Below are positions 1,717 to 18,891 of a stretch of DNA of 64,000 nucleotides, piece by piece. A program made the position numbers and the translations under genes. The notes beneath the pieces were generated by a model. That model worked only from the letters and a program-made list of their open reading frames with translations. It had not been told where the DNA came from and ran no database searches. Every line of letters starts with the position of its first letter. Position 1 is the first letter of the stretch. This stretch comes from Chloroflexi bacterium GWB2_49_20 (lineage in GTDB: Bacteria; Chloroflexota; Anaerolineae; Anaerolineales; Villigracilaceae), in contig MGMF01000007.1 in NCBI GenBank assembly GCA_001796335.1, positions 1 through 64,000 of the forward strand, given 5' to 3'.

Positions 1717-1851
1717 CTCAAATAAATCCTTTCAACAATAATATATGGTTAAATTCCTATCCAATAATTCATGGCATCTGCCATCCCGGCATTTTTTCTC
1801 TTGGCCAATTTCTGCATAGAACATAGCACCAATCCTAAAATTCGGGGTTTT

Positions 1852-1892
1852 GTGGGGGATTTGGCAGCGCACAGGGCCGCCAAATCCCCCAC
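1852..1892. repeat. Intergenic hairpin between MFS and amidohydrolase genes
   Basis: Arms GTGGGGGATTTGGC (1852-1865) and GCCAAATCCCCCAC (1879-1892) pair perfectly over 14 bp around a 13-nt loop. It lies in the 240-bp gap downstream of the MFS gene. There is no U-run on the minus strand, so it may stall polymerase, stabilise mRNA ends or be an inserted palindrome. Short ORFs on both strands here are by-products of the repeat. Confidence 0.7.
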
Positions 1893-1956
1893 CTTACCTT
1901 CACTTGTTAATTTTCGGATAGATACTTTTTTCATCCAGGAGTTGGATGATTTAGCT

Positions 1957-3183: not shown

Positions 3184-3587
3184 TAGCGAGTTTTCTCCAT
3201 CAATTCGATCAGAACTCCATTGGTAGATTCGGAATTGATGAATGCTATCCGGCCTGTGGCTCCCTGGCGGGGAACCTCATCGATCAATATTAATCCAGCT
3301 TCGCGAACCGATTGGAGAGTTGCATCCAGGTCGGTCACCTCAAAACAAATATGGTGCAGACCTTCTCCATTTTCTTTAAGAAAATCGGCAATATTGCTCC
3401 CGGTTGCATTTGGTTGGAGTAATTCAAGCTCCATATCTCCCATTGGAAGAAAAGCCACCGTCACAGATTTGGTGGGGAGGTCCAGCATGTGGCTGACCTT
3501 CATTCCCAGGCCTGCATAGGCTTGGCATGCCTGCTGTATGTTTTCCACGACAATGCCAATGTGATCCAGTCTTTTTAGCATACTCAA
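3183..3587 (-). CDS. VOC superfamily protein, methylmalonyl-CoA epimerase-like
   Basis: This 134-residue protein has two glyoxalase-fold modules. RLDHIGIVVENI near the N-terminus, MELELLQP, GLHHICFEV (about 90-98) and VLIELME at the end supply the His/Glu metal ligands in the order seen in methylmalonyl-CoA epimerases. No mutase gene lies nearby, so a different isomerase or lyase reaction on a CoA ester or keto acid is possible. The start ATG overlaps the stop of the DRE-TIM gene by 4 bp (ATGA) and the stop overlaps the MFS start, so the three are translationally coupled. A second ATG at codon 3 is possible. Confidence 0.82.
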   Translation of the reverse strand: MSMLKRLDHIGIVVENIQQACQAYAGLGMKVSHMLDLPTKSVTVAFLPMGDMELELLQPNATGSNIADFLKENGEGLHHICFEVTDLDATLQSVREAGLILIDEVPRQGATGRIAFINSESTNGVLIELMEKTR

Positions 3588-4816
3588 GCTCCGGCAGCAT
3601 CCAGTACTCTGGCGGCAATCTTTTGGAATTCATCCACTTTAAGCAGGCGCTTGTTTTCAAGAGAGAATTGCTTCACTTTTACCAGGATGTCCATTACATC
3701 GCTTTCACCGACTTCGCCCATGTTCAACTTATCCAGCCAGAATTTGATGGAGTCCACACCGCTGCCTTTACCCAAAACCACATCCACGGGCTGGTTACCC
3801 ACCATTTCCCAACGGAATGGAAATACTTCGGTTATATCCTCATGTCCGCAATTGCGTACCCAACTGGTGATGATACCCGATTCAACATTGTAAAGCATAT
3901 CTCCCACCACCGGACGATTGGCCGGGATGAATGCACCGGAGAGCTGGCGAACCAGGTTGGCCAGCTCGGTCAACACACTCAGATTCATGCCGGTGTCACA
4001 ATTGTACATGGTGCGCAGCGCCATTACCGTTTCCTCAAGAGGCGTATTTCCGGCCCGTTCGCCTATCCCAAGCACTGTGGAATGGATCACTTCGATACCA
4101 GCTGCCACGCCCAGAATGGTATTGGCAACCCCCATCCCAAAATCCATGTGAAAATGGGCTTCGAGCGGTTGTTTGATACGGGCCCGAATCTTTTGCACCA
4201 GGTATGCGATGGCATGCGGAGAAAGAACGCCAAAAGTATCCACTACTGCCAGGGCATCCATGTGCCCTTCGGTTGAAACCCGCGTGATCAGATCCAGGAA
4301 CCAGTCGATCTCGGCGCGGGAGGAATCGATCGGGAAGAAGACCACATATAAGCCTTGTTCATGTGCGTATCGCGTGGAGGCAATGGAGAGTTCAATGGCT
4401 TTTTCCAACTCCCAGCGATAGGCTTTTTGGAGGATGTGCTGGCTGGATGGCACTTCCATGACTACGCCCTTGACGCCACAATCCACGGCACGTTTCACAT
4501 CATCCACCATACAGCGTGCAAAAGCAAAGATCTCAGGTCCCAGGTTGCGTTTAACTATTTCTTTTATGGCAGCTTCATCGGAAGGCGAAACCGCCGGCAT
4601 GCCAGCTTCAATACGATGCACGCCCAACTCAGCCAGTTTTTCGGCAATGCGGATCTTGTCGTCCTTTGTAAAAACTACTCCGGCTTGTTGTTCACCATCC
4701 CGCAAGGTGATGTCATGAAAGCGGACTTTGGGTGGGATGGAAATATTGGAAGTTACTTCCGGGCTGAAATTCCACGGCGAGGTGAACCAATCATCAGTAT
4801 GCCAGGGTTGTGTCAT
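3584..4816 (-). CDS. DRE-TIM metallolyase family protein (homocitrate/isopropylmalate synthase or HMG-CoA lyase-like)
   Basis: This 410-residue protein belongs to the pyruvate-carboxylase-like aldolase family. HDITLRDGEQQAG (about residues 34-46) is the DRE motif, and GIGERAGNTPLEE (about 245-257) is the signature of the Claisen-condensation branch. The usual HxHND metal motif reads HFHMDFG (about 216-222), with Met in place of Asn. The C-terminal part is a LeuA/homocitrate-synthase communication-like segment, but no full regulatory domain is seen. It may condense an acyl-CoA with a 2-oxo acid, or cleave the product. AAAGGA precedes the ATG. An isolated 122-bp gap with a hairpin separates it from the upstream M24 gene. 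Confidence 0.82.
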   Translation of the reverse strand: MTQPWHTDDWFTSPWNFSPEVTSNISIPPKVRFHDITLRDGEQQAGVVFTKDDKIRIAEKLAELGVHRIEAGMPAVSPSDEAAIKEIVKRNLGPEIFAFARCMVDDVKRAVDCGVKGVVMEVPSSQHILQKAYRWELEKAIELSIASTRYAHEQGLYVVFFPIDSSRAEIDWFLDLITRVSTEGHMDALAVVDTFGVLSPHAIAYLVQKIRARIKQPLEAHFHMDFGMGVANTILGVAAGIEVIHSTVLGIGERAGNTPLEETVMALRTMYNCDTGMNLSVLTELANLVRQLSGAFIPANRPVVGDMLYNVESGIITSWVRNCGHEDITEVFPFRWEMVGNQPVDVVLGKGSGVDSIKFWLDKLNMGEVGESDVMDILVKVKQFSLENKRLLKVDEFQKIAARVLDAAGA

Positions 4817-4845
4817 TTAGATATCCTTTCCTGTTGGTTTTCAAA

Positions 4846-4877
4846 CAGGAGGAGGCATGGGTTCAATCCTCCTCCTG
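4846..4877 (-). promoter_or_regulatory. Hairpin in the leader of the DRE-TIM gene
   Basis: Arms CAGGAGGAGG (4846-4855) and CCTCCTCCTG (4868-4877) form a 10-bp stem with a 12-nt loop. It lies in the 122-bp gap between the M24 gene and the DRE-TIM start. There is no U-run, so an RNA processing or stabilising element is more likely than a terminator. Confidence 0.5.
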
Positions 4878-4938
4878 CATATTTGGATGGGTTCCAATCA
4901 AACACAGGTGTAGTCAGATTTCTTGGGTTGAAATGCAA

Positions 4939-6198
4939 TTATTGCGGCCAGAAATCCGGGGCGTGTTCACACAGTGTGAAGTTCACATTTCCGTCCTCGG
5001 TTACCAACACATTTTCTTCAAGGCGGACGGTTTGCTCAAGCAGAGGATGTCCGGCAAAAGTTTCCACAGCAAAATACATATTCGGCTTGATCTCAGCCGG
5101 GTAATCCATGGCATAGGCACGTGAAATCCACATACCTTCGTATAACGTCAACCCGATGCTATGGGCGAACTGTTGGAGTGTGACTGTTCCATATTTATCA
5201 TCATCGTATACTGGGAAAGCCCGGGCTACATCCGCGGTTGTGTTACCGGGTTTGAGTTGAGCAATTCCAGCGTACAACGAATCGTGGCATTCCTTGTAAA
5301 GGTCGAGTTCTTTTGGAGTTGGTTTTGCAGCAACTTTGAAGCAACGCACAAAATCAATAAAGTAGCCGGATGGGCCAATGGCATTGATGTCCACGATCAC
5401 CATGTCTCCCTGGCGGATGATTTTATCGGTTGCCCAGCGGCGGTATGGGCTGGTATTGCCGCCCGAAGCTACGATGATATCGTATATCACTTCGCAGCCC
5501 TGGGTGATCATGTATTCATGGACTTTCGCCTCAATATCACGTTCGCGCACGCCCGGCTTGGCCCATTCATTCATCACGCGCCACATGGCTGCGTCTCCAA
5601 TAGTGCTGGCCTGCTTGAGTAGTTCAATTTCATCAGGTGTCTTGATAACACGTGCTGCTGACATGACTGGCCAGCCATTGACAACCTTAATGCCCTTGTC
5701 CACAAAAGCCTGGTAGGCAGGCATATCGAGGTTATCAATACCAATCTTTTCTTTATCCACCTTAAATTTCTTGAGTACGTCTATAACTGTATCTGCCATT
5801 CGCCCTACCATCATGGGTTGCGCACCTTCCGTCCACTGCCAGGTAATGGCAGGATGAATGCGACCTTCCATCCAGGGCAGGTCAATTTTAGCGCACTCCA
5901 GGTCTGAACCAGCGGTTTCAAACAAAACCGGTTCACCACCGCGTGGCAAAACAGCATAACGGATATTAATGTTGTATTTCCAGTTGCCCTGGTACGAGCC
6001 GGTGACATAGCGGATGTTCGCACCGGCAAATAAAACCAAAGCTCCCAGGTCAAATTTTTCCAATTGCTCTTTTGCTCGCTCTAAGCGTTGTTCTCGTAGG
6101 CGCAGAGGGTCTACTCGTGCCTGCCAATCAGCAATTGTGGTACTGTAAACGCGGCGAGGAAGGGTATGATGGGGCTTGCCGATAAAACTGAGATCCAT
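4939..6198 (-). CDS. M24 (creatinase/aminopeptidase P/DddP-like) family enzyme
   Basis: This 419-residue protein has an N-terminal creatinase domain (about 40-175, with GALVLF and NIRYVTGSYQGNW) and a C-terminal pita-bread catalytic domain. Metal ligands of the M24 fold appear as the two Asp of VIVDINAIGPSGYFIDF, the His of QFAHSIGLTLYEG, the Glu of FAVETFAG and the Glu of RLEENVLV. Members include Xaa-Pro peptidases, creatinase and the DMSP lyase DddP, and the fold does not say which. With RidA and an aminotransferase next door, hydrolysis of a C-N bond or a lyase reaction on a small substrate is more likely than protein turnover. AAGGAG sits 7 nt before the ATG. Confidence 0.85.
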   Translation of the reverse strand: MDLSFIGKPHHTLPRRVYSTTIADWQARVDPLRLREQRLERAKEQLEKFDLGALVLFAGANIRYVTGSYQGNWKYNINIRYAVLPRGGEPVLFETAGSDLECAKIDLPWMEGRIHPAITWQWTEGAQPMMVGRMADTVIDVLKKFKVDKEKIGIDNLDMPAYQAFVDKGIKVVNGWPVMSAARVIKTPDEIELLKQASTIGDAAMWRVMNEWAKPGVRERDIEAKVHEYMITQGCEVIYDIIVASGGNTSPYRRWATDKIIRQGDMVIVDINAIGPSGYFIDFVRCFKVAAKPTPKELDLYKECHDSLYAGIAQLKPGNTTADVARAFPVYDDDKYGTVTLQQFAHSIGLTLYEGMWISRAYAMDYPAEIKPNMYFAVETFAGHPLLEQTVRLEENVLVTEDGNVNFTLCEHAPDFWPQ

Positions 6199-6225
6199 TG
6201 TGAACTCCTTGTTGTTAGATATGAA

Positions 6226-6696
6226 TTATTCTTTAACTGAAATCAACATTTCCAATTGAACAGTAAAACTTCGTGCAGTTTGCCGCAACCCAATGGCAGT
6301 GCGTGCATGCTTTCCAGCTTCTCCAAAAATGGCAACCAGCAAGTCAGATGCGCCGTTTAAGACTTCAGGCTGTTGGGTAAATCCATCTTCACTATGAACG
6401 TATCCTGTCACCTTCAATATTTGCTGTACCGTATCCAGGGAGGCAACACTGGTCAATGCAGCCAGGCAGTTCAACGCCGCCAAACGGGCAGCCTGTTGGC
6501 CTTGCTCCACCGTAAAATCACTGCCAACACGCCCATAATATTTTTCAGCACCTGCTCCGACGGAGCCATGCCCTGAGACATAGACCAGATTACCATGACG
6601 GATGGCAGGCAGGTAATTGGCGATCGGTACCGGTACTGAAGGCAACTCCAGGCCGAGAGCTTGCAATCGTGAAAGTGGGCTTTCTATTTTACCCAT
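6226..6696 (-). CDS. RidA/YjgF/YER057c/UK114-family protein
   Basis: This 156-residue protein has the chorismate-mutase-like RidA fold of the endoribonuclease-YjgF subgroup, with segments YLPAIRHGNLVYVSGHG, QQAARLAALNCLAAL and ARTAIGLRQTA. RidA proteins deaminate reactive enamines/imines released by PLP enzymes, and related proteins hydrolyse deaminated ring-cleavage products. The typical catalytic Arg may be the one in the C-terminal ARTAIGLRQ stretch. A PLP aminotransferase is encoded in the same operon, which fits imine clearance. It overlaps the upstream cupin gene by 13 bp and lies 27 bp before the M24 gene. Confidence 0.87.
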   Translation of the reverse strand: MGKIESPLSRLQALGLELPSVPVPIANYLPAIRHGNLVYVSGHGSVGAGAEKYYGRVGSDFTVEQGQQAARLAALNCLAALTSVASLDTVQQILKVTGYVHSEDGFTQQPEVLNGASDLLVAIFGEAGKHARTAIGLRQTARSFTVQLEMLISVKE

Positions 6697-7082
6697 GGTT
6701 CTTCAACAAATGTGGTACCCGAGGCTTCTTTGTTGGGGACATTCCCATATGCAAAAATGAGGGCAGCCGGTTCTTTCTGGTTTGGATTTTCGATGCCGTG
6801 AATCTCACCTTTACGAACATGAACAAAGGTCCCAGGTTTTACACGCGTTAATTCGCGTTTCTCGCCAATATATACGTTTAATTCTCCCTGGAGAATAAAG
6901 AAACCAGCTTCAGCATTTGGATGGTAATGGGCCGGGTTGCGAACACCGGGTGGGATGATGGTGTATCCCATGGTCAGTTCTTTTGACCCGCAGGTGGAAT
7001 CATTGATACCAATACGAATATCGAGACCTTTTTCATAGTCCAGGTCTGGGGTTATCTGGTCTTTAGAAATTATGGTTGCCAT
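6684..7082 (-). CDS. Cupin domain protein
   Basis: This 132-residue cupin starts at MATIISKDQ. That ATG has AAAGGA upstream, whereas a longer reading to 7229 would run through the GntR gene. Motif 1 is NPAHYHPNAEAGFFILQG and motif 2 PGTFVHVRKGEIHGIEN, so the metal site (His, His, Glu, His) is intact. Such cupins bind or transform small carboxylates or ring compounds. The gene overlaps the RidA gene and follows the GntR gene by 19 bp, so all three are on one transcript. Function in the pathway is unknown. Confidence 0.86.
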   Translation of the reverse strand: MATIISKDQITPDLDYEKGLDIRIGINDSTCGSKELTMGYTIIPPGVRNPAHYHPNAEAGFFILQGELNVYIGEKRELTRVKPGTFVHVRKGEIHGIENPNQKEPAALIFAYGNVPNKEASGTTFVEEPWVK

Positions 7083-7101: not shown

Positions 7102-7764
7102 TTATTCTTCCAAGGGTATGGGGTCGTTCCAATCCACCATGATGCCCTTGAGCACATGCTGGGTATGTTCTTTAATGAGCTTTTCGGCTTCGTCGGCATC
7201 ATGCCGGACCAGGGCTTCGTATATTGCACGGTGATCCTCGTGAACTATCTCCACCCGCCCCACCGGGTCGAGATACTGGCGGGCGACGGTTTCCATCATG
7301 TTTCGAAATTTCATGACCAGAGCGGCTGTATGGGGCTGGTTGGATGCATTCAGGATGGCTGCATGAAATGCAGAGTTTAGATGGTAATACTGTTCTGGTT
7401 CCTTGCGAGCCTCTTCAAGCTTTCTCAATCCCAGATGGATCTCATCCAATTGTTCGGGGGTTGCCCGCTCAGCAGCAGCCCGGCAGGCCATTCCTTCCAA
7501 TACAGCACGAACCGTCATGATCTCTTCAACATCGGCACGAGTCAGTTCGGTGACAATGACACCGCGCCTTTGCTCAAAGGTCACCAGGCCCTCTGCTGCC
7601 AGGGTACGGAAAGCTTCACGCACAGGGATACGGCTGACACCAAAATGGGCAGCAATATCATCCTGGACCAGGCGCTCGCCAGGTTTCAGACTGCCATCCA
7701 AAATGGACTCGCGCAGGCTGTCCACCACCACTTTTTGGATCGTCGGTATCGAATTTTCTAACAT
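7102..7764 (-). CDS. GntR/FadR-type (FCD) transcriptional regulator
   Basis: This 220-residue regulator has an N-terminal winged helix (about 10-75, GERLVQDDIAAHFGVSRIPVREAF...LAAEGLV split over the HTH) and an all-helical FCD ligand domain (about 80-210). The FCD metal/carboxylate site is suggested by an Asp/Glu and His residues in LNSAFHAAIL and VHEDHRAIYEALVRHD. FCD regulators usually bind organic acids and repress catabolic operons. The gene is embedded in the cluster and has no promoter room of its own. Two matching 15-bp palindromes at the divergent promoters (15139-15153, 15252-15266) are its likely operators. Confidence 0.9.
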   Translation of the reverse strand: MLENSIPTIQKVVVDSLRESILDGSLKPGERLVQDDIAAHFGVSRIPVREAFRTLAAEGLVTFEQRRGVIVTELTRADVEEIMTVRAVLEGMACRAAAERATPEQLDEIHLGLRKLEEARKEPEQYYHLNSAFHAAILNASNQPHTAALVMKFRNMMETVARQYLDPVGRVEIVHEDHRAIYEALVRHDADEAEKLIKEHTQHVLKGIMVDWNDPIPLEE

Positions 7765-7777: not shown

Positions 7778-8722
7778 TTATGAGTCAAACACAAGGTTTC
7801 CCGATGTTCGCACCAGTTCCTTGTAATCCTTTTGCAGATCAGCAGTTATTAAACCAGTTTTTCCATCTGCAATTATTCTTCCATCTATTTCACCAACAGC
7901 CACGATTTCACTGGCAGTGCCAGCAATAAAAACTTCATCCGCAGTATATAAGTCTGAAAGTGAAACTGATTGTTCAAACACTGCACCAAACCGTTTTACT
8001 GAGAGCTCCATCACCACCTGGCGGGTAATCCCAGGCAGGGCTGCTGTCAATGCAGGGGTCATCAATTTGCCATTTTTGACCAGGAAAATATTACTGGCAG
8101 TCGCCTCAACTACAAACCCGGATGGATCGAGCATGAGGGCATCATCCGCGCCGAAGGCATTGGATTGCAGCTTGGCCATAATATTATCAAGATAATTTAA
8201 TGATTTTATGCGTCCGTCAATTGACAATGGAGCCTTTCGACGTATGGCTGCTGTCAGCAACCTCACCGGTTTGTCGCCAAAGGTCGGAGGGGCTGCTGAA
8301 GCCAGTATCATTACACTGGAGCGAATGGTGCGACGCGGGTCCAATCCTGGTTTTCCAGGTCCGCGCGTTACAACCGGGCGGATGTGCGCATCCTTAAGAT
8401 TATTAGCCCGCAAAGTGGCGATGATCGCACCGGCGAATTGTTCGGGTGTCAAAGGCATCGCCAATTGGATTGCACGGGCTGAATCAAACAGACGGGCAAG
8501 GTGGGCTTCAAGCTTGAAGATTCTTCCTCCATAAACACGGATGCCCTCATAGATCCCATCTCCATACAACAATCCATGGTCCCAAACCGAGACACTGGCA
8601 TCAGCGCCTTTAACCATGCGACCATCGAGAAATACCCACAGGTCAAACATATCTTTTAAGCTTTCGGCCAGTGGGGGCGTAATCGGCCAATTCATATCTG
8701 GAACTATAGGTTCGTCAATCAC
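7778..8722 (-). CDS. Class IV PLP aminotransferase (branched-chain aminotransferase-like)
   Basis: This 314-residue fold-type IV enzyme carries the Schiff-base Lys in RIKSLNYLDN (Lys173). LMLDPSGFVVEATASNIF (about 196-213) is the phosphate/cofactor region and VFIAGTASEIVAV is the C-terminal signature. Relatives include IlvE, D-amino-acid transaminase and (R)-amine transaminases. The N-terminal 25 residues exceed the family norm. The GTG start chosen has GGTGAGG ahead of it, and an internal ATG at codon 25 is possible. The gene begins 3 nt after the MmgE/PrpD stop. In a catabolic cluster it more likely removes an amino group than makes branched-chain amino acids. Confidence 0.85.
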   Translation of the reverse strand: MIDEPIVPDMNWPITPPLAESLKDMFDLWVFLDGRMVKGADASVSVWDHGLLYGDGIYEGIRVYGGRIFKLEAHLARLFDSARAIQLAMPLTPEQFAGAIIATLRANNLKDAHIRPVVTRGPGKPGLDPRRTIRSSVMILASAAPPTFGDKPVRLLTAAIRRKAPLSIDGRIKSLNYLDNIMAKLQSNAFGADDALMLDPSGFVVEATASNIFLVKNGKLMTPALTAALPGITRQVVMELSVKRFGAVFEQSVSLSDLYTADEVFIAGTASEIVAVGEIDGRIIADGKTGLITADLQKDYKELVRTSGNLVFDS

Positions 8723-8725
8723 TTT

Positions 8726-10084
8726 TCACCTCACCATATGACGGAATGTACAGATATCGAACAATTCCTGGAGATCAGGTTCGTTCTCCATGTTCAATAT
8801 AATATCCTTGGTACGTTCTATTTGGGTCTCCGACAATATCCCCCGGCAATATTTGCGATAAATATCCACGCTCTGATCCATGCTTAATGGAAATTTAGGA
8901 CCACCATAAGGCTGCTCAAGGGCTTCTGTCATTAATTTGCCGTTCTTTAACTTTATGTCAACCCGTCCTTCGCCGGCAAAATAGCGCTTTGGATATTCCG
9001 GATGGTAAACCACCTTGATCTTTTTGCGTACCTCAACCAGGGCTGGATCGTTAATGGCCACATCCGTGCAAGTGTCAAGACCGCATTCTCCATGCACCAA
9101 CTGGTAAGCCAGGATATGCTGGGTGCTGAAGCGGCTATCTTCCGCATCCTTTGGATCTGGACGGTCAACTACTTTTCGCAATTCGTCAAAATGCAGAGTG
9201 ATCTCTTCAATATCTTCATTGCTGAAGGAATGCTTTGCCATCATGTCTGCCAGCGCATCCACAAAATTATGAGTGAAGAAGCAAAAACCCCACTTCTTGA
9301 TCCAGGTATCGTTGGTATAAAAAGGCGCCTGACCCAGACCTTCAGTCATTTTATCAAACTCGATGTTTTTATCACCTCCGGTCAGCATGTCAAGACATTT
9401 TTCGATCACCGGGTTGCTGGTCGCCCCAGCTTTGGCCATGATGACATTCAATACAGCATTACGGCAAACCGTGGCAGATTCCCAGAAATGAGCATCCGTT
9501 CCCCAGGTGTGGATATAACCCAACCCCTGAACCATCGCCAATCCGAAGGAGGCTTTGATCTGGGCTTCGGTCAGTTCAAAAGCCTTGGCACAACTTGCGG
9601 TTGCGCCATAGATTCCAATAAATGGCAGATTACAGATGCCAATTGGGTCCGTGCCAACCGAAGCCCAATAAGCAATCCGGTTTTGCATTTCCTGGCCAAC
9701 ATACAGGGCTACAACCGTTTCTTTTCCAGAGAGTTTCCATTTATCTGCGGCTGTCAACAAAGCAGGCCAGGTGGTGACATCGCTGATGCCACCTCCTGGG
9801 AACTGGTCATCTTCCATTTCAGAAGCATGACCAAAAAAGCCATTGATCAATGCAGCCTGGGCAACATCAGTTTTAAAACCCAAGCCATATATACCACTTT
9901 CGGGACGACCGGGGTTTTCTTTCACATAATGAATCACTTTCTTGCAGGTGGGTGCAGTTGAACCGACCAGCATTCCCATGACCTGTTTTAAGGTCAATTT
10001 CTTAATATGTTCAATCACCGATGGATCGACATCCTGGATCTCAGTGTGAGCCACAAACCTGGCGAATTTATCTGCAAGTTCCAT
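8726..10084 (-). CDS. MmgE/PrpD family protein
   Basis: This 452-residue protein has the family's helical N-terminal domain with FFGHASEMEDDQF (about 85-97), close to the FxxHxxDxDD-type active-site motif, and a C-terminal alpha/beta domain. The family includes 2-methylcitrate dehydratase and cis-aconitate decarboxylase, so dehydration, hydration or decarboxylation of a polycarboxylic acid is the expected chemistry. The ATG at 10084 is preferred: GGAGG lies 5 nt upstream. The GTG four codons further out overlaps that ribosome site and is probably not used. The neighbours are the enolase-superfamily gene (33 bp upstream) and the aminotransferase gene. Confidence 0.87.
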   Translation of the reverse strand: MELADKFARFVAHTEIQDVDPSVIEHIKKLTLKQVMGMLVGSTAPTCKKVIHYVKENPGRPESGIYGLGFKTDVAQAALINGFFGHASEMEDDQFPGGGISDVTTWPALLTAADKWKLSGKETVVALYVGQEMQNRIAYWASVGTDPIGICNLPFIGIYGATASCAKAFELTEAQIKASFGLAMVQGLGYIHTWGTDAHFWESATVCRNAVLNVIMAKAGATSNPVIEKCLDMLTGGDKNIEFDKMTEGLGQAPFYTNDTWIKKWGFCFFTHNFVDALADMMAKHSFSNEDIEEITLHFDELRKVVDRPDPKDAEDSRFSTQHILAYQLVHGECGLDTCTDVAINDPALVEVRKKIKVVYHPEYPKRYFAGEGRVDIKLKNGKLMTEALEQPYGGPKFPLSMDQSVDIYRKYCRGILSETQIERTKDIILNMENEPDLQELFDICTFRHMVR

Positions 10085-10117
10085 CCAATCCTCCACAACG
10101 TAAAAAATGTATTTTCT

Positions 10118-11224
10118 CTAAAGTTCGATCCGGCAATGTGCCAGGGCGGCCTCATCCAATTTCACACCCAGTCCCGGTTTTTCCGGGGGAAGATACGCCC
10201 CTCCCACAGGTACCAGTCGCTCGGTGACTACATCATGACTTATCGAGTGCGGATAAATACCTGTATCCCAGGATAAGTCTGGAAGGCTGACTGCGAGGTG
10301 GATTTCAGCAGCCGCGCTGATACTGGTTTGTCCAGGCATGCCTCCCAGGTGAAGGTTCAGATTAGCTGCCTGGAGGACTGCCGCAAGCTGCCGGCATCCA
10401 ACGATGCCACCCGCTTTCATTATCTTCATCACTGCTCCATCGGCAGCAGCAAGGCGAATATGTCGCAAAGCATCTTCTGCATTGAACAAGCCTTCATCCG
10501 GTGCGACGGGTGTATCCACTGCCCGGGCAACCTTGGCCATACCATCCAAATCATAACGATGGACTGGTTGTTCAATAAATTGAAGATGACAATCTTCAAC
10601 TGCCTTTAGAAACTGGATGGCTGCTTCCGGGCTCCAGGCCTGGTTGGCATCAGCCCGTAAATGGATATTGTTACCGATCCTTTTACGGACAGTGCGTATG
10701 CGTTCAATATCCTTTTGCAACGAGCCCACACCCACCTTGATCTTGATGGCCTGGAAACCTTGTTCGATGCCCTCCAGGGCTTCATCTTCTGCTTGCGTGG
10801 GTTCTTCTGCAGATATGGCCCAGGTGGAATTGACCTGATCTCGTACCTTGCCTCCCAGCAATATATACAATGGGACATTCATGGCCTGGGCTAACAGGTC
10901 GTGTAAGGCAATATCAATTGCAGATTTGGCAGACGGGTTTCCGTATAACACCCGGTCCAGCCTTGCCAGGTTGGCATGTATATTGAAAACATCCTGACCA
11001 ACTAAAACAGGTGCAAGCAGCGTATCAATAGCTGCTTTCGCTCCCGCCTGGGTCTCACCGGAGAAATAAGGCGCTATCACTGCTTCCCCCAATCCTACCA
11101 GGCCCTCATTGGTGTGAATGCGCACAATCAGTGAATCGCGTCTGGATACCGTTGCCACCGCCATCTTGAGCGGATGATTCAACGGGATTGCGACCGGGAT
11201 AGCTTCGATTGCGGTTATTTTCAT
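10118..11224 (-). CDS. Mandelate racemase/muconate lactonizing enzyme family protein
   Basis: This 368-residue enolase-superfamily enzyme has a capping domain (about 1-120) and a barrel. FQAIKIKVGVG supplies the KxK acid/base pair (about 160). Mg ligands are RADANQAW (Asp, about 193), FIEQPV (Glu, about 219) and APDEG (Asp, about 244). The opposite-face Lys is in MKIMKAGG (about 266-270). This layout is the MLE subgroup: cycloisomerases, dipeptide epimerases, o-succinylbenzoate synthase and N-acyl amino acid racemases. Which one cannot be told here. It heads the enzyme genes directly after the ABC importer genes, so it may act first on the imported compound. Confidence 0.87.
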   Translation of the reverse strand: MKITAIEAIPVAIPLNHPLKMAVATVSRRDSLIVRIHTNEGLVGLGEAVIAPYFSGETQAGAKAAIDTLLAPVLVGQDVFNIHANLARLDRVLYGNPSAKSAIDIALHDLLAQAMNVPLYILLGGKVRDQVNSTWAISAEEPTQAEDEALEGIEQGFQAIKIKVGVGSLQKDIERIRTVRKRIGNNIHLRADANQAWSPEAAIQFLKAVEDCHLQFIEQPVHRYDLDGMAKVARAVDTPVAPDEGLFNAEDALRHIRLAAADGAVMKIMKAGGIVGCRQLAAVLQAANLNLHLGGMPGQTSISAAAEIHLAVSLPDLSWDTGIYPHSISHDVVTERLVPVGGAYLPPEKPGLGVKLDEAALAHCRIEL

Positions 11225-11242: not shown

Positions 11243-12013
11243 TTAACTCACTCCCAAGGCGGCCAATTCTTCGGCCCGGATGGTCTGCATGGCCTGAAGA
11301 TGGCGGACAACATCGGAATAGAATTCAATAAACACACGGTCGGTCAGATTGCGCGGCCGGGGCAGATCGATCTTGATGTCCACAAATATGCGACCGTGGT
11401 AATCCAACATGATCAGGCGATCACCCAATTCCACGGCTTCCTGCATGTCATGGGTTACGAACAGGATGGTGCGGCGAGTTTCCTGCCAGATGCGCAGCAT
11501 TTCTTCACGCATTCCACCAGCGGTGATCTCGTCCAGGTGGCTGAAAGGTTCGTCCATCAACAGGACAGCCGGTTCGATGCACAAAGCCCGGGCGATACCG
11601 GCTCGCTGCTGCATGCCACCGGATAACTGATAAGGAAACTTATGGCGGACATTTTTTAAACCCACCATTTCAAGGTATTTATGAACTCGCTCTAAATGAG
11701 TCGCCTCATCTACTGCATCCGGGCGGACAAAAACGAGATTTTGCTCAATAGTCAGCCAGGGCAGCAGGCGCGGGCTTTGGAACACATACCCCAGGCGTGC
11801 AGAAAGATTCTTGCTGGAACTCACTTCCGCTATTCCGGAGGTGGTTGTTTCTATGCCAGCTAGAACATTTAACAGAGTGCTCTTACCGCACCCGGAAAAA
11901 CCAACGATGGTGGTTAAACTGGATTCTTCCACATCAAAGCTTACATTATCCAGCACACGCAAATCACCAAAACACTTGACCAGATCTTTTACAGAAACAG
12001 CTGTAGCTGCCAT
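11243..12013 (-). CDS. ABC transporter ATP-binding protein (nitrate/sulfonate/taurine type)
   Basis: This 256-residue ATPase has Walker A GFSGCGKST (about 37-45), Q-loop VFQSPRLLPW, signature LSGGMQQRAGIARAL (about 133-147) and Walker B VLLMDEPFSHLD with the H-loop VTHDMQEA. The LLPWLTIEQN sequence after the Q-loop is typical of SsuB/TauB/NrtD importers. GAGGAGG lies just before the ATG, and the stop of the upstream permease overlaps the start (TAATG). It energises the two permeases encoded upstream. Confidence 0.93.
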   Translation of the reverse strand: MAATAVSVKDLVKCFGDLRVLDNVSFDVEESSLTTIVGFSGCGKSTLLNVLAGIETTTSGIAEVSSSKNLSARLGYVFQSPRLLPWLTIEQNLVFVRPDAVDEATHLERVHKYLEMVGLKNVRHKFPYQLSGGMQQRAGIARALCIEPAVLLMDEPFSHLDEITAGGMREEMLRIWQETRRTILFVTHDMQEAVELGDRLIMLDYHGRIFVDIKIDLPRPRNLTDRVFIEFYSDVVRHLQAMQTIRAEELAALGVS

Positions 12014-12849
12014 TAGACCTCCTCTAAGATTTGAGGCCGCCAGCGTGCAAAATGTCGCTCAGCGGGCACAAGGATACCGTACTCGATCAGGATCATCACG
12101 CCACCAAATAGAAGGGACCAGGCGAGGATGCCGCGTACGGCAAACATTTGAAAATTAAAACGGATCATATAACCAATGCCACTGGTGGCTCCGAAGACCT
12201 CGGTCAGGACGGAGGCTTTCCAGGCGATGGTAAAGCCGGTGCGGATGGCAGCCAGGATGTGTGGCAACAGGGATGGTATGATCACCTGCTGAACAACCTT
12301 CCATTTTCCAATCTTATAAGCCTGGGTCATATCCAGCAAGTCCTTATCCAGGGCTTTCACTCCCTCGCGTATGTTCACTGCAATGAAGGGATACGATGCA
12401 AAGAGAATGGCCATGACCGGAGCCAAGAGTTTGGTGCCAAAAATCACCACAGAAAGCAAGGCATACACCAGGCCGGGCAGGGACAAACCCAGGATTACAA
12501 TATCCTTGAAGAACTCATTCCAGAACCAGCGGCTGCCCATCAACACCCCCACGATCATGCCAAGCGTCATGGCAAGTACAAACCCGATCAACAACCGGAC
12601 CAGGCTGTCACCCAGCTGCACGAAAAACTCTCCACTAGCCAACACTCCCCACATGGTTGCAGCCGTTCTGGCAGGTGAGGGCACCAACCCGCGGCCTCCC
12701 AGGAAAAAGCTGATGATCTGCCATATCACCAATACCATCAATATGGCCAGCCACCCCTTGTGGAAGATGATTCCCTTGAAGGATTTGGCGAAACGCTTGC
12801 TCGCGGCAAGAGACGTACTGTTCGGCGAAACATTTACTGCTACACTCAT
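12013..12849 (-). CDS. ABC transporter permease (SsuC/TauC type), copy 2
   Basis: This 278-residue membrane protein has about six helices and the cytoplasmic EAA-like loop DMTQAYKIGKWKVVQQVIIP, which contacts the ATPase. The ATG at 12849 is preferred because AAGGAGG lies 5 nt upstream. A GTG five codons earlier overlaps that site. It closely resembles the permease encoded immediately upstream, so the pair looks like a tandem duplication that may form a heterodimeric channel. The substrate is unknown; the family takes up sulfonates, taurine, nitrate, pyrimidine precursors and aromatic acids. Confidence 0.91.
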   Translation of the reverse strand: MSVAVNVSPNSTSLAASKRFAKSFKGIIFHKGWLAILMVLVIWQIISFFLGGRGLVPSPARTAATMWGVLASGEFFVQLGDSLVRLLIGFVLAMTLGMIVGVLMGSRWFWNEFFKDIVILGLSLPGLVYALLSVVIFGTKLLAPVMAILFASYPFIAVNIREGVKALDKDLLDMTQAYKIGKWKVVQQVIIPSLLPHILAAIRTGFTIAWKASVLTEVFGATSGIGYMIRFNFQMFAVRGILAWSLLFGGVMILIEYGILVPAERHFARWRPQILEEV

Positions 12850-12865
12850 CTTAGCCTCCTTCACC

Positions 12866-13699
12866 TTAAATTACCTGCTTGACCTTGGGACGCCAGCGAG
12901 CCAGGTAGCGTTCCGCAGGTACCAGCAAGCCATATTCGATCAACAGCATGACACCCCCGAACATTAAGGCCCAGGCTACGATCCCGTACACAGCATACTG
13001 GTCAAAACTGTTTTTAATCATATATCCAACACCACTGACAGCCCCGAAGACTTCCACCAGGGTACAGATCTTCCAGGCGATGGCAAAGCCATTCCGGATG
13101 GCTGCCAGGATGAACGGCAGCAGGGACGGCAGGATTACCTGCCGAACGATCTTGCCGCGCCCGATCTTGTATGAACGGCTCATGTCGATCAAGTCTTTAT
13201 CCAGCGATTTAACCCCTTCGGCAACATTGATAACTACAAAAGGATAGGAGCCGGCCAGGATGGCAGTCACAGGCGCCAGGATGCTGATGCCGAAGAACAT
13301 TACACAGATCAAGGCATAGATGAGTCCGGGTAATGCCAGGCCCAGAATTACCATCGCTTTAAAGAACTGATCATAAGATTTTCGGCTGCCCATCAGGATG
13401 CCGATGATCGTTCCTAATATCATGGCCAGGGAAAAGCCGATCAAAATGCGTGTCATGCTGGCTGCCAGTTGTTCAAAAAATATCCCGCTGGTTAGTATCC
13501 TCCACATGGTGGCGCCCACCTTTACCGGTGTGGGGATCAGGCGGCTATTCCTGAAGACTGCATAGGTTTGCCAGACGACTAAAGCAATAATTACGAAAAG
13601 CCAACGCGGGCTGATCAGGAAGCCCTTCATAGCCTGGGCGAACCTTCTGGCTCTGGTTGCACTTGGAATTTGCGAAGGATTGATTGCAGTTGCGGTCAT
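12866..13699 (-). CDS. ABC transporter permease (SsuC/TauC type), copy 1
   Basis: This 277-residue membrane protein is a paralogue of the next gene: the same six-helix plan, and an EAA-like loop DMSRSYKIGRGKIVRQVILP in the same place. Both end in VPAER(H/Y)xARWRP, followed by different tails. AAGAGG precedes the ATG. It lies 126 bp after the binding-protein gene, with a strong hairpin between, and 16 bp before copy 2. Confidence 0.91.
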   Translation of the reverse strand: MTATAINPSQIPSATRARRFAQAMKGFLISPRWLFVIIALVVWQTYAVFRNSRLIPTPVKVGATMWRILTSGIFFEQLAASMTRILIGFSLAMILGTIIGILMGSRKSYDQFFKAMVILGLALPGLIYALICVMFFGISILAPVTAILAGSYPFVVINVAEGVKSLDKDLIDMSRSYKIGRGKIVRQVILPSLLPFILAAIRNGFAIAWKICTLVEVFGAVSGVGYMIKNSFDQYAVYGIVAWALMFGGVMLLIEYGLLVPAERYLARWRPKVKQVI

Positions 13700-13825: not shown

Positions 13826-14881
13826 TTAATTGGCCGGAGGCTTATTCACCACAAAGTTCGGGTTGGGCATATCGGCAGGCATGAAGCCAGTGGAGCGCAT
13901 CAAGTCGAAGAGAGGCAATTCTTTTTCGACCCAGGTCTGATCCAGGTAAACGCTATCCACAAACCAGTCATGGTCGGTCAACCATTTTTCCATGGTGGCA
14001 ACATCACTGTCGAAAGTGGGTGATTCGGGATCAATGCCCCAATCTTCCGGATAGAGAACAATGAAGTCGTGACGGTTGGCTTTCCAGGCATCGATACCGG
14101 CCTGCCACATTGCCAGGAAGAATTCAACCGCTTTCGGATTGGCGTCGTACCATGCTTGGGTTGCCAGGAAAATGTTTCCAGGGACACCCTTGTGGGTCTT
14201 GGCAGGATCCAAATAATCCCGGTAATACTCCCAGGTGCTGCCCTCGTCGTAGAGTGGGCGGACGGTACCGGCTGCAATTTCCGGCATGACAGCTTCGGGA
14301 ATGATGACACCTGCTTCGATCTGTCCTTCGCGCAGCAACTGACCATTGACCATGTGGTCGTTGATTTGCAGGTCAAACTGCTTGGTGCCAACCCGGAAAT
14401 CCACACCTTCGGTCTTGCTGAGCATTACACCCCAGATCATGGTGGATGAGAGCGGGCCGGGTACGCCGATCTTCTTGCCTTCCAGGTCCTTGATGGTATG
14501 GTAGGGTGAATCGGTCTTGACAAAGATCGGTACACGGCCCAGGTTGTAGATACCAAAGACAACATAATCCTGACCACTTTCAGTCGCCAGGGCAGGTACT
14601 TCATAGTCACCGGTCGAGGCAATGTCGGCATGACCGCCACCAAAGAAGGCGGCTTCATCCCAGGTGGAGATGGTCTGCAAATGCATGTTGTATTTTTCTT
14701 CATAGGTTGCAACGATGCCGGTGTCCACCATATATTTCATTACCGGGTCTGGAGCAAAAACAAAGCGCACCACCGTGGCTGGTTCTTCAGTTACAGGTGA
14801 TGCGCTACCGCATGCGGATAATACAAATGAAATCGCAAGCAGCACACTAAACATAGCGTAAAGTCGAGAACGGACTGACAT
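13826..14881 (-). CDS. ABC transporter substrate-binding lipoprotein (NMT1/SsuA-like)
   Basis: This 351-residue protein has a signal peptide with lipobox LSAC (Cys about residue 24 from the chosen start), so it is a membrane-anchored lipoprotein. The mature part has the two-lobe NMT1/THI5/SsuA fold, with STWDEAAFFGGGHADIAST (about 95-113) and KIGVPGPLSSTMIWG. The ATG at 14881 has GGAGG upstream; a TTG four codons earlier lies inside that site. It is the first gene of the minus-strand cluster and so defines its substrate, which cannot be identified by eye. The promoter and GntR operator lie 250-310 bp upstream. Confidence 0.92.
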   Translation of the reverse strand: MSVRSRLYAMFSVLLAISFVLSACGSASPVTEEPATVVRFVFAPDPVMKYMVDTGIVATYEEKYNMHLQTISTWDEAAFFGGGHADIASTGDYEVPALATESGQDYVVFGIYNLGRVPIFVKTDSPYHTIKDLEGKKIGVPGPLSSTMIWGVMLSKTEGVDFRVGTKQFDLQINDHMVNGQLLREGQIEAGVIIPEAVMPEIAAGTVRPLYDEGSTWEYYRDYLDPAKTHKGVPGNIFLATQAWYDANPKAVEFFLAMWQAGIDAWKANRHDFIVLYPEDWGIDPESPTFDSDVATMEKWLTDHDWFVDSVYLDQTWVEKELPLFDLMRSTGFMPADMPNPNFVVNKPPAN

Positions 14882-15138
14882 AGCTTCCTCCAAATGGCGA
14901 ATTTGAAAAGATTGATTATGAAACGAACCGTCTTAACAGTTCCAGATCTGGATCATTTGTATGCAGCCTTTTGAAAAAAATTCGAAAGTAAAACCCTGCC
15001 CGGATATTTCGTGCATTATTTCTTAAACCAAGGATGCGCCAAAAGCAGGTTACTTTATCTAGGTCACAAGGCTACAGGTTTGCTTATGGGTATATATTTG
15101 TCAGACATCCTCCTCCTCTCCTCGTAAGAATGATCTAT

Positions 15139-15153
15139 TGTATATTGTATACA
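15139..15153. promoter_or_regulatory. Putative GntR/FCD operator, importer side
   Basis: TGTATA-TTG-TATACA is a perfect inverted repeat with 6-bp arms. It sits 12 bp downstream of the minus-strand -10 box, where a bound repressor would block transcription of the importer-catabolic cluster. It has the same form as the palindrome at 15252-15266. Confidence 0.72.
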
Positions 15154-15164
15154 TTATAAAGTAT

Positions 15165-15192
15165 ATTTTATTCATTAATCCGGGTTTGTCAA
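15165..15192 (-). promoter_or_regulatory. Predicted promoter of the minus-strand catabolic cluster
   Basis: Read on the minus strand, -35 TTGACA (15187-15192) and -10 TAAAAT (15165-15170) are spaced 16 bp. Transcription would start near 15158 and run into the operator. A leader of about 280 nt with no coding signal would precede the binding-protein gene. Confidence 0.6.
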
Positions 15193-15223
15193 GCCCCACT
15201 TGACAGGAAATTGCCATTTTAAA

Positions 15224-15252
15224 TTCAAAGGTCAGCTCGAAGATGTTATACT
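15224..15252 (+). promoter_or_regulatory. Predicted promoter of the SDR-dehydrogenase operon
   Basis: On the plus strand, -35 TTCAAA (15224-15229) and -10 TATACT (15247-15252) are spaced 17 bp. The operator at 15252-15266 overlaps the end of the -10 box and the start site. Confidence 0.6.
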
Positions 15253-15266
15253 GTATATAATATACA
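15252..15266. promoter_or_regulatory. Putative GntR/FCD operator, dehydrogenase side
   Basis: TGTATA-TAA-TATACA has the same 6-3-6 form as the site at 15139-15153. It covers the predicted start of the SDR operon and ends 19 bp before its start codon. Confidence 0.72.
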
Positions 15267-15284
15267 AATATTTTGGAGGCTCAT

Positions 15285-16061
15285 TTGGGAAAATTATCAA
15301 ACCTTACCGCCATCATCACGGGTGCAACCTCAGGCATTGGCAAAGCTACCGCAGAATTGTTTGCCCGGGAAGGCGCCAACCTGGTCATCACCGGTCGGCG
15401 AAATTATTTGGGTGAGGCTGTGGCAGCCCAGATCAACCGCAGTGGCGGGCAGTGCCTTTTCCTTCAAGCAGATCACACCTGCATCGAAGATTGTGAGAAA
15501 ACCATCCAGCAAACCTTAAACCGGTTTGACAAGATTGATATTCTTTTTAATAATGCCGGCATTGTCACACGGGGCAGTGCCGAAACTACCAGCGAAGAAG
15601 ATTGGGCAAATACCTGGGATATTAATGTCACGGCTGTCTGGCGCATGTCCCGCCTGGTCATTCCGCACATGCGTAATACCGGAAAAGGTGTAATAGTTAA
15701 TAATGGGTCAGACCTGTCTGTGGTGGGTGCCAGGGGATTTTTGCCTTATGCAACCAGCAAAGGAGCAGTGGCACTGATGACCAAGAGCATGGCACTCGAT
15801 CATGCTTCTGAAAACATCCGCGTGAACGCGGTCTGCCCTGGAGACACCTTTGTGGAACGCTGGCTTGAAAGGGGCTTTTATGAACACGGCACTCCAACCA
15901 CACCTGAAGAGGCCATGCTCAGGTCAGCCACCAGCCTGCCAATGGGGCGTTATGCCCTTGCAGAAGAAGTGGCTAGGGTAGTATTATTCCTGGCAAGTGA
16001 TGATTCTTCATTTGTTACAGGCCATACCTTGATGGTGGATGGCGGAAAAACAGCAGCTTGA
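15285..16061 (+). CDS. Short-chain dehydrogenase/reductase
   Basis: This 258-residue classical SDR has the cofactor motif TGATSGIG (about 11-18), NNAG, a catalytic Ser in NNGSDLS and YATSK (Tyr/Lys, about 150). A basic residue after the second strand (TGRR) suggests NADP. A TTG start at 15285 is chosen because GGAGG lies 5 nt upstream; another TTG at 15273 overlaps that site. It oxidises or reduces a hydroxy or keto group. It is divergent from the catabolic cluster, shares the paired operator region and overlaps the next gene. Confidence 0.88.
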   Translation: MGKLSNLTAIITGATSGIGKATAELFAREGANLVITGRRNYLGEAVAAQINRSGGQCLFLQADHTCIEDCEKTIQQTLNRFDKIDILFNNAGIVTRGSAETTSEEDWANTWDINVTAVWRMSRLVIPHMRNTGKGVIVNNGSDLSVVGARGFLPYATSKGAVALMTKSMALDHASENIRVNAVCPGDTFVERWLERGFYEHGTPTTPEEAMLRSATSLPMGRYALAEEVARVVLFLASDDSSFVTGHTLMVDGGKTAA

Positions 16062-18891
16062 TATGGATATTAAAAAACAGCTCTCATCGATCATTCCTGA
16101 AGGACGCATCCTGACCAATCCAATCGAGCGGTATGCTTACGCCAACGATGCTTCTTTCTTCCGGCTCATACCACAGGCTGTCATCCAACCTGTTTCTGTG
16201 GATGAGATCTGTGGCTTATTCCGATTTTCCCAGCAAAACCAGATTCCCATCACCTTTCGGGCGGCAGGTACCAGCCTTTCCGGGCAATCCATCACAGATG
16301 GTCTCTTGACCGTGGTCTCACGACACTGGGGGCGGATGCAGGTGGAAGAGTCCGGTCGGCGTGTTCGCTCCCAGCCAGGTGTGGTGGGAGGTCAACTCAA
16401 CGCCTTTCTTAAACCTTATGGCCGGCGTATCGGCCCGGACCCGGCTTCCATTGATGCAGCCATGCTGGGCGGCATTCTGGCCAATAATTCCAGTGGAATG
16501 TGCTGTGGGGTGGCGGAAAATGCCTACCATACCATTCACTCGCTCACGGTTGTATTGCCCAATGGCCTGGTGCTGGATACGGCTTCCCCGGATGCCGCAA
16601 CTCAATTTCAGGAAGGCGCCCCGCAGATCGCCAGCGGCTTGCTCGAATTGCGCCTCAGGCTGTTGGCAGATGCCACCCTGACGGAACGTGTGCGCAATCG
16701 TTACCTGATGAAGAACACGGATGGCTATTCATTGAATGCCCTCTTGGATTACGACAACCCAATCGACATTCTGACCCATCTGATGATCGGTTCGGAGGGT
16801 ACCCTGGGCTTCATTGCCGAGGCTGTATTAAATACTCTGCCAGATTACTCCCACAAATATACCGGTCAGCTCTACTTCAAAACCATCCATGATGCTGCTC
16901 GTGCCATCGCCCCCCTGCGCGATTCAGGTGCACGTGCCGCCGAGATCATGGAGCGCGCCGCCCTGCGTTCGGTGGAAAATCTGCCCGGAGCGCCAGGCAT
17001 CCTGCGACAATTGCCCGATACAGCAGCAGCCATCCTGGTGGAATACCAGGGTTGTTCAAGAGAAGATATGGCTGACATTCAGCGCGTTTCCGCCGGCACT
17101 CTTCGCGGCCTGGATCTGCTGCATGACCCGGAGTTCAGCGAGGATCCGGTTGTCCAGGCTGAGTTGTGGAAGCTGCGTAAAGGCTTGTTCCCCACGCTGG
17201 GAGCCATGCGCCCGAAAGGCAGTTCCGTGATGACCGAAGACCTGGTCTTCCCCGTGCCGCGCCTGGCAGAAGCAGTTACCGACTTGCAAGCCCGTTTCCG
17301 CACTTATGGTTACGAGGATGCCATCATCTTTGGGCATGCCAAGGATGGCAACCTGCATTTCAATTTTAGCTGCTTCTTAAACAACCAGGCCGAGATCCTG
17401 CACCTGGAGCACTTTATGGATGATGTACTCGCCATGGTCAGGAATAAATATGATGGTTCTCTCAAAGGTGAGCATGGCACCGGGCGAGCCATGAGCCCTT
17501 ACCTGGAGGCGGAATGGGGCGCCAATGGTTATGCCATGCTGCGCGACATCAAATCCCTGTTTGACCCATCCGGTCTGCTCAACCCGGGTGTCATCATCAA
17601 TCCTGATCCGCGCTCGCATGTATCTGACATCAAGGACATGCCCGAAGTGGAAGTGGAAGTGGATAAATGCATTGAGTGTGGACTGTGTGAGCCAAATTGT
17701 CCAAGCCGGCGCCTGACCCTGACCCCGCGCCAGCGGATCGTTATCCGCCGGGAGATCACCCGCCAGAAAAAAGCAGGTAGCGACGCACCATTATTAACTT
17801 CCCTGCTGGAGGATTTCAATTATTTCGGGCTGGAAACTTGCGCCGTGGATGGTTTATGCGCCTCGGCTTGCCCGGTGGGAATCAACACCGGTGACCTGAC
17901 CAAGTATCTGCGCGCCGGGCTGGTGAGTCCACGCGCTGAGAAGACCGCCCTGTGGGTTTCGGAACATTTTACAAGCGTGGAAAAAGCCCTCGGCATGGGC
18001 GTTCGCCTGGCTCATGCAGTTGAGTCCGTCATCGGTGCAAATGCCATCACCGGTTTTTCGCTCCTGGGCGAAAAGCTGACCGGGATGACCCTGCCCAAGT
18101 GGAACGCGGCTGTGCCATATGTGCCCTCCCGGCTGCCTGTCACACGACAAACAGACGCGGCTTATGTTTACTTCCCATCCTGCATTTCACGACGTATGGG
18201 CGTTCCCCAACCTGGTATGGCTTCCCTGGCTGATACCATGCTGAAGGTAGCCGGACGAGCCGGTGTTTCGTTGTGGATCCCTCCGGATGTGGAAGGCAAT
18301 TGCTGCGGAATGCCATTTGGTTCAAAGGGTTACACTGCAGCCTACGCGGCCACCCGGCAGCGCACTCTTGAGCGCTTCTGGGAATGGTCACAACACGGAA
18401 AACTGCCGGTGGTGATCGACACAACCTCCTGCACGTTCACCCTGTGCCAGTATAAAGACTACCTCCCGGCGCTATCCGCCGGGGAGCGTGCCATCTTTGA
18501 AAAGCTGACCCTGCTGGATGGTCTGGACTTGATGCATGATGTGCTTCTTCCAAAATTGCAGATCCAGCCAGTAGCCGGAGAAGTCATTTTGCACCCCAAC
18601 TGCTCAGCGCGCAAAATGAACCTGCAAAGCAAGATGACTGCCATCGCCAGCCGCTGCGCCAAATCCGTCACTGTTCCGCTGCACCTGGATTGCTGTGCCT
18701 TTGCCGGAGACCGTGGATTGCTCTTCCCTGAACTGACTGCTGCCGCCACCTCACTGGAGAGTGCGGAAGTAAAAGCCCACCCTTATGACGGCTACTATTC
18801 ATCTAATATCACCTGTGAAATGGGTTTGTCGCTCGCCACGCAGCAGAATTATCATTCCATTGTCTATTTACTTGAGCAGGCTTCGCACTGA
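16039..18891 (+). CDS. FAD-linked and Fe-S dehydrogenase (GlcD-GlcF / D-lactate dehydrogenase-like fusion)
   Basis: This 950-residue fusion has a PCMH-type FAD-binding domain (about 30-210, TFRAAGTSLSGQS), an FAD-oxidase C-terminal domain (about 250-520, FGHAKDGNLHFNF and GEHGTGRA) and two 4Fe-4S motifs (CIECGLCEPNCP near 544, CAVDGLCASACP near 601). Two CCG-type segments follow (GNCCGMPFGSKG, HLDCCAFAGDRG). Relatives oxidise D-lactate, glycolate or D-2-hydroxyglutarate and pass electrons to quinone or another carrier. The likely role is oxidation of a 2-hydroxy acid from the pathway. The start is uncertain: ATG 16039 overlaps the SDR, while ATG 16063 directly follows the SDR stop. Neither has a good ribosome site. 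Confidence 0.9.
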   Translation: MAEKQQLDMDIKKQLSSIIPEGRILTNPIERYAYANDASFFRLIPQAVIQPVSVDEICGLFRFSQQNQIPITFRAAGTSLSGQSITDGLLTVVSRHWGRMQVEESGRRVRSQPGVVGGQLNAFLKPYGRRIGPDPASIDAAMLGGILANNSSGMCCGVAENAYHTIHSLTVVLPNGLVLDTASPDAATQFQEGAPQIASGLLELRLRLLADATLTERVRNRYLMKNTDGYSLNALLDYDNPIDILTHLMIGSEGTLGFIAEAVLNTLPDYSHKYTGQLYFKTIHDAARAIAPLRDSGARAAEIMERAALRSVENLPGAPGILRQLPDTAAAILVEYQGCSREDMADIQRVSAGTLRGLDLLHDPEFSEDPVVQAELWKLRKGLFPTLGAMRPKGSSVMTEDLVFPVPRLAEAVTDLQARFRTYGYEDAIIFGHAKDGNLHFNFSCFLNNQAEILHLEHFMDDVLAMVRNKYDGSLKGEHGTGRAMSPYLEAEWGANGYAMLRDIKSLFDPSGLLNPGVIINPDPRSHVSDIKDMPEVEVEVDKCIECGLCEPNCPSRRLTLTPRQRIVIRREITRQKKAGSDAPLLTSLLEDFNYFGLETCAVDGLCASACPVGINTGDLTKYLRAGLVSPRAEKTALWVSEHFTSVEKALGMGVRLAHAVESVIGANAITGFSLLGEKLTGMTLPKWNAAVPYVPSRLPVTRQTDAAYVYFPSCISRRMGVPQPGMASLADTMLKVAGRAGVSLWIPPDVEGNCCGMPFGSKGYTAAYAATRQRTLERFWEWSQHGKLPVVIDTTSCTFTLCQYKDYLPALSAGERAIFEKLTLLDGLDLMHDVLLPKLQIQPVAGEVILHPNCSARKMNLQSKMTAIASRCAKSVTVPLHLDCCAFAGDRGLLFPELTAAATSLESAEVKAHPYDGYYSSNITCEMGLSLATQQNYHSIVYLLEQASH

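Follow-up and report, generated by a model that had tools for sequence, protein, structure and literature searches.

Few groups of regulators of bacterial catabolism are as numerous as the FCD regulators and, to our knowledge, most of them have no known operator. The window analysed here (the whole 64,000-nucleotide stretch of contig MGMF01000007.1 from Chloroflexi bacterium GWB2_49_20) contains an importer and catabolic gene cluster, a divergently oriented operon and, between them, two palindromes of the form TGTATA-N3-TATACA. The question raised by this locus is whether the palindromes are operators and which protein reads them. It is probable, and we hold this reading with considerable confidence, that both serve as operators for the cluster's own GntR/FCD regulator, which would act as an autoregulated repressor of both promoters and be released by a metabolite of the pathway. 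The locus connects a transport-and-catabolism cluster that is unstudied with the switch belonging to it, its comparison with related loci yields a cheaply testable rule leading from helix residues 45 and 46 to half-site bases, and the operator spacing observed here would escape searches that employ the usual GT-N2/3-AC consensus. The features under discussion are summarized in Table 1.

Table 1. Features of the window, with the genes of each strand in their order of transcription
Feature	Position	Strand	Description
ABC-transporter substrate-binding protein (NMT1/SsuA type)	13826-14881	-	first gene of minus-strand cluster
Two ABC permeases and ATPase (nitrate/sulfonate/taurine type)	11243-13699	-	
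Muconate-cycloisomerase-like enolase (MLE), MmgE/PrpD protein, class IV aminotransferase	7778-11224	-	
GntR/FCD regulator	7102-7764	-	220 aa, helix SRIPVRE (R45-I46), eighth gene of importer cluster
Cupin, RidA-like, M24/creatinase, HMGL-like synthase, methylmalonyl-CoA epimerase family, MFS, amidohydrolase	724-7082	-	probable downstream portion of cluster; putatively co-transcribed
SDR dehydrogenase and fused FAD-oxidase/Fe-S protein (GlcD/YdiJ-like)	15285-18891	+	divergent operon
Predicted importer promoter	15165-15192	-	TTGACA-16-TAAAAT, 11/12 match
Predicted SDR promoter	15224-15252	+	TTCAAA-17-TATACT, 9/12, extended -10 TG
Operator 1	15139-15153	.	TGTATATTGTATACA, 6-3-6 palindrome; TGTATACA inside at 15146-15153
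Operator 2	15252-15266	.	TGTATATAATATACA, perfect 7-1-7 palindrome
Promoter/operator module, importer orientation	15139-15158	-	TATAATGTATACAATATACA
Promoter/operator module, SDR orientation	15247-15266	+	TATACTGTATATAATATACA
Half-site array at operator 1	15138-15165	+	7-bp-phased: TTGTATA TTGTATA CATTATA AAGTATA
Half-site array at operator 2	15247-15267	-	7-bp-phased: TTGTATA TTATATA CAGTATA

The initial annotation had reported two perfect 15-bp palindromes of the 6-3-6 form at both predicted start sites, and a GntR/FCD regulator gene embedded in the cluster. Our analyses bear out these statements: the palindromes are exact, each of them overlaps a predicted -10 box or follows it closely, and the eighth gene of the cluster encodes a protein in which both domains score above cut-off (PF00392, N-terminal winged helix, 67.2 bits; PF07729, FCD, 90.4 bits). 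A whole-genome pattern scan, which the annotation had proposed as a check, identified two perfect matches to TGTATA-N3-TATACA in the 3,374,887-base genome, viz. operators 1 and 2, and no perfect copies beyond these. With one mismatch allowed, 9 further sites were found (8 outside the window and 1 overlapping operator 1), compared with 7 for the reversed pattern that served as the genome-wide control, and their number is therefore at background level. The 8 sites outside the window are located within or next to genes, and inspection of their surroundings revealed no obvious tie to the cluster, and the one-mismatch matches were rejected as additional regulon members because they occur at background frequency and their genes do not fit. 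When the intergenic region (403 bp, 36% GC) was subjected to 5000 dinucleotide shuffles, not one shuffle contained even a single TGTATA-N3-TATACA, and none contained any repeated 6-3-6 palindrome. The uniqueness of the pair in the genome, together with its absence from the shuffles, confirms that it is not a product of chance.

The two promoters listed in Table 1 were the best of the intergenic region, one per strand, in a promoter scan. Operator 1 is located 11 bp downstream of the minus-strand TTGACA-16-TAAAAT and overlaps an alternative TATAAT, and the first base of operator 2 is the final base of the plus-strand -10 box TATACT; such positions, over or just past the -10 box, are those at which a bound repressor would block initiation. 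The two 20-bp promoter/operator modules, each read toward its own gene, are identical at 18/20 positions, and 0.01 occurrences of the 20-mer pattern are expected per window with 3 mismatches allowed. After correction of the start codons, the SDR gene begins at TTG 15285 and the binding-protein gene at ATG 14881, each preceded by GGAGG. The distance from the end of operator 2 to the SDR start codon is 18 bp, whereas operator 1, although located at the importer promoter, is ~258 bp away from the start codon of the binding protein. The centres of the operators are 113 bp apart (10.8 turns), and a loop between them is not particularly favoured, since this distance deviates from a whole number of turns.

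The initial annotation had further tied 17 genes into one predicted regulon. The count is correct, as the minus-strand set comprises 15 genes, transcribed from the binding protein to the amidohydrolase in the order of Table 1 and including the cupin gene (6684-7082), and the plus-strand set comprises 2. A single regulon is plausible, but intergenic gaps of 126, 122, and 240 bp within the minus-strand cluster leave room for further promoters. No terminator-like sites were found on the minus strand in these gaps, and the minus-strand genes are putatively co-transcribed. The fused FAD-oxidase of the divergent operon (16039-18891) resembles GlcD/YdiJ and carries 4Fe-4S and CCG parts at its C-terminus; with 175 bits it falls well short of the 1350-bit cut-off of the YdiJ equivalog.

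The gene for the FCD regulator is the sole transcription-factor gene among those of the cluster. The relatives of this protein in the PDB are FCD regulators and, of the seven FCD proteins encoded by the genome, it alone has the R45-I46 helix. Its FCD domain contains candidate metal-site residues (N130/H134/H178/H200, assigned by spacing) with the same 4- and 22-residue steps as the metal site of Atu1419 (N137/H141/H192/H214; PMC7797058). Another FCD regulator of this genome (L048, G000:C6) has, by eye, the helix SRNILREA, and it appears to lie beside a sugar-isomerase-like ORF and a gene whose start resembles that of an isopropylmalate synthase.

The family name alone cannot settle which protein reads the operators, because the 15-mer that they share has the form GT-N9-AC, whereas in published FCD operators GT and AC are separated by 2-3 nt (Suvorova et al. 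2015; PMC4494728). The shared 15-mer thus falls outside the FadR/FCD consensus GT-N2/3-AC, and a simple dimer of the FadR or Atu1419 type would not obviously span it. The earlier statement on FCD regulators, namely that they bind TGTATACA-like palindromes, is correct (Atu1419; PMC7797058) but does not extend to the shared 15-mer, in which GT and AC are 9 nt apart; GTATAC and TGTATACA are present in operator 1 only and not in operator 2. The 6-3-6, 15-bp spacing recurs upstream of FCD homologues in the clade, and the operators of the window belong to a class that we define here, viz. the wide-spaced clade operator, in which inverted TTxyATA half-sites upstream of the operon of the regulator are 10 bp apart from start to start and x and y are set by residues 45 and 46. 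In its predicted role, the FCD regulator is a known kind of gene control with an operator spacing that is wider than usual.

A number of characterised systems share features with this locus. Atu1419 from Agrobacterium fabrum (FCD repressor, VanR group; PMC7797058) likewise has R45, which reads G, and R49 in its recognition helix and an N/H/H/H metal site, and two GTATAC-containing palindromes are found at the -10/-35 boxes of its divergent intergenic region; it differs in that all copies of its site have the compact form ATGTATACAT (GT-2-AC), whereas TGTATA-N3-TATACA is the common form here. Divergons of the FadR subfamily, as described by Suvorova et al. (2015; PMC4494728), likewise have double sites, one near each divergent operon, and in the window there is also one site per divergent operon, with the regulator gene in one of them. 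The TKGT/ACMA boxes, the Arg-G helix contact, and extra half-sites 7-12 nt away are further points of likeness, whereas GT and AC are 2-3 nt apart in that subfamily and a correlation between residue 46 and base y is not known to be among those that the study describes. NanR from E. coli (PMC8012715) is also an FCD-type GntR repressor with phased TATA-core repeats, (GGTATA)3, but these are hexamer direct repeats only and NanR has a long N-terminal extension; here, heptads at both operators are combined with a true palindrome, and the 220 aa regulator, with its HTH from residue 9, lacks the 32-residue N-terminal extension of NanR. AlkR (PMC12042122) and DhdR (PMC8651671) are GntR repressors with odd-centred 13-bp palindromes at promoters (ATTGTCAGACAAT and GTTATCAGATAAC, respectively), although their sites are shorter and their gene clusters unrelated. 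DhdR controls a D-2-hydroxyglutarate dehydrogenase (PMC8651671), an enzyme to which the divergent operon's FAD/Fe-S protein bears a distant similarity.

Evidence on the reading protein was obtained from 39 homologous regulators with usable upstream DNA, a set that is independent of the window locus. Their upstream regions were scanned for paired TTxyATA heptads, in tandem by 7 or inverted with a start-to-start distance of 10 or 3, at a threshold of 9 of 10. Pairs with a score of at least 9 are present in 21/39 of these regions, compared with 3.2% of shuffles put through the identical scan, the heptad form having been noticed on the same loci that were later scored and its choice not being blind. 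A perfect 7-1-7 palindrome is found within 150 bp upstream in 10 of the 19 homologues from the same family and order (0.22 expected); most of these palindromes are TAGATATWATATCTA within ATTAGATATWATATCTAAT, and they have the length and spacing of those in the window but differ in the outer bases. The score-10 sites are mostly inverted pairs that form perfect 19-bp palindromes (ATTAGATATWATATCTAAT). In one homologue from another family (L034; R45-S46, 39% identical), TGTATACTGTATACA matches the window pattern exactly and overlies a TTGACA-17-TATACT promoter; no orthologs of L034 were found in relatives of its genome at E 1e-45. Heptads were not seen in about half of the homologue regions, including those closest by overall identity (L028-L031, 41%).

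The two variable bases of the half-site follow two adjacent residues of the recognition helix. Base x is G with R at residue 45 (5/5), A with Q (10/10) and M (3/3), and T with T or H (3/3), while base y is G with M or L at residue 46 (15/15), T with T (3/3), and T with S in 2/3, the one exception to the code (L036) being at base y. The presence of G at x in 5/5 R45 regulators vs. 0/16 others (Fisher p=5e-5) and at y in 15/15 regulators with M46 or L46 vs. 1/6 others (Fisher p=3e-4) has to be read in the light of the descent of these homologues, which are related and not independent; after collapse to tree clades, the counts for x are 3/3 vs. 0/4 (p=0.03). For an R45-I46 helix the code predicts TTGTATA, which is what the operators of the window contain, twice in tandem at 15138-15151 and once more at 15267-15261 on the minus strand, and the earlier proposal that the embedded regulator reads both sites thus gains support at the level of sequence. 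Upstream GTATAC-type sites with x,y = G,T are found for 3/4 plasmid-borne R45-I46 regulators from outside the phylum (two from Cupriavidus), and other plasmid-borne R45 proteins having a recognisable site have G as well; the sites of plasmid-borne homologues show compact spacing. Upstream of T45/H45 regulators (L044:1380-1410, L042, and L041) there are four-part sites, e.g. TTTGATATTTGATCAAATATCAAA, which consist of two tandem heptads and their mirror image and may show the relation between the compact and wide spacings. We tentatively propose, rating its chances slightly below even, the generalisation that this clade of FCD regulators reads wide-spaced (6-3-6, 7-bp-phased) operators in place of the compact FadR palindrome, and that residues 45 and 46 encode two neighbouring bases of the half-site (R=G, Q/M=A, T/H=T; M/L=G, I/S/T=T). 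The operators of many uncharacterised FCD regulators would, if this code is true, be predictable from the protein sequence alone.

From the computed sites, their uniqueness and positions, and the co-variation of half-site and helix, we infer binding, repression, an effector, and co-transcription of all of the genes in the following form. A dimer of the regulator would place its recognition helix (R45-I46) on the TTGTATA half-sites and, at 15139-15153 and 15252-15266, would cover the -10/start region of both divergent promoters, so that the SDR/FAD-oxidase operon and the importer/catabolic cluster would be silenced jointly. Release would come from a pathway substrate or intermediate, which is probably a carboxylate bound at the FCD metal site. 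As the regulator gene lies within the repressed cluster, the regulator would also limit its own supply. Judged from the sequence comparisons, the operator pair is real and well supported and would belong to a regulator of a known kind; its spacing is unusual, and it fits a simple candidate residue-to-base rule.

A variant of this model, which is not exclusive of it and which we consider somewhat unlikely, takes 7-bp direct repeats (TTGTATA TTGTATA ...) as the true element, bound in a NanR-like manner by several FCD dimers side by side, with the palindrome as a by-product. Both operators can be read as phased heptads, and tandem heptads stand alone in L036, L037, and L039 and beside inverted ones in others. 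NanR binds (GGTATA)3 (PMC8012715), and GntR sites are often accompanied by weak extra half-sites at a distance of 7-12 nt (PMC4494728). In the light of these two precedents, a single dimer may span the 15-mer, or two dimers may occupy half-sites phased by 7 bp. However, most of the score-10 homologue sites are inverted pairs, operator 2 is a perfect 7-1-7 palindrome, and the extension of NanR is missing from the regulator. We give little credence to the possibility that the FCD protein activates, or that it loops both sites as a tetramer as has been proposed for Atu1419. The FCD protein CitO is reported to activate (PMC4746285), but activation is unlikely here because the sites lie over or downstream of the -10 boxes and not upstream of the -35 boxes. 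The Atu1419 tetramer forms a loop between two ATGTATACAT sites that are separated by 190 bp within a divergent region (PMC7797058), whereas the 113-bp spacing of the window does not amount to a whole number of turns.

It is also improbable, in our assessment, that the operators belong to a regulator encoded elsewhere (for instance, of the TetR-, MarR-, or YtrA-type) and that the embedded FCD protein controls something else. Proteins of these three types prefer widely spaced palindromes, and the 6-3-6 geometry is closer to other families than to the published FCD consensus. In the sites of YtrA-type GntR proteins, GT and AC are placed at a distance from the centre (PMC4494728). Against a foreign regulator stand the equally spaced 15-bp palindromes that immediately precede the FCD homologues' own genes, the half-site bases that track FCD helix residues, the lack of any second regulator gene in the cluster, and the absence of the sites from the rest of the genome. 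Hardly credible is the notion that overlapping, AT-rich -10 boxes (TATAAT/TATACT repeats) gave rise to the palindromes by chance and that no regulator binds them: the region is indeed 36% GC and the sites do overlap -10 elements, but the shuffles (0/5000) and the uniqueness in the genome speak against it, as does a module that is present twice and fits the code of the local regulator.

The cluster was not found elsewhere among ~800 sampled genomes. There were no matches to its binding protein in 60 relatives, in 396 genomes of the class, or in plasmids, and one distant match (33-36%) in 400 genomes of the phylum, where the cluster is built differently and is without TGTATA-N3-TATACA sites. In this distant cluster with its related binding protein, ACGTATACGT (L057:14005-14020) is located ~70 bp upstream of the binding-protein gene and is likely a compact GntR operator belonging to that cluster.

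Other features of the intergenic region and leader were also considered. An inverted repeat, TGTCAAG-CCCCA-CTTGACA (15187-15205), lies midway between the operators. It was set aside because 28% of shuffles yield an equally good repeat and because the predicted importer -35 box forms its left arm. A search of the leader and intergenic region against Rfam returned no family and one sub-threshold chance match, and an RNA-level explanation was set aside on this account. The leader of ~277 nt that separates the start of the binding-protein gene from the importer promoter contains, on the minus strand, a 14-codon ORF (MSDKYIPISKPVAL; 15064-15108) behind a strong GGAGGAGG, and this ORF could be a leader peptide.
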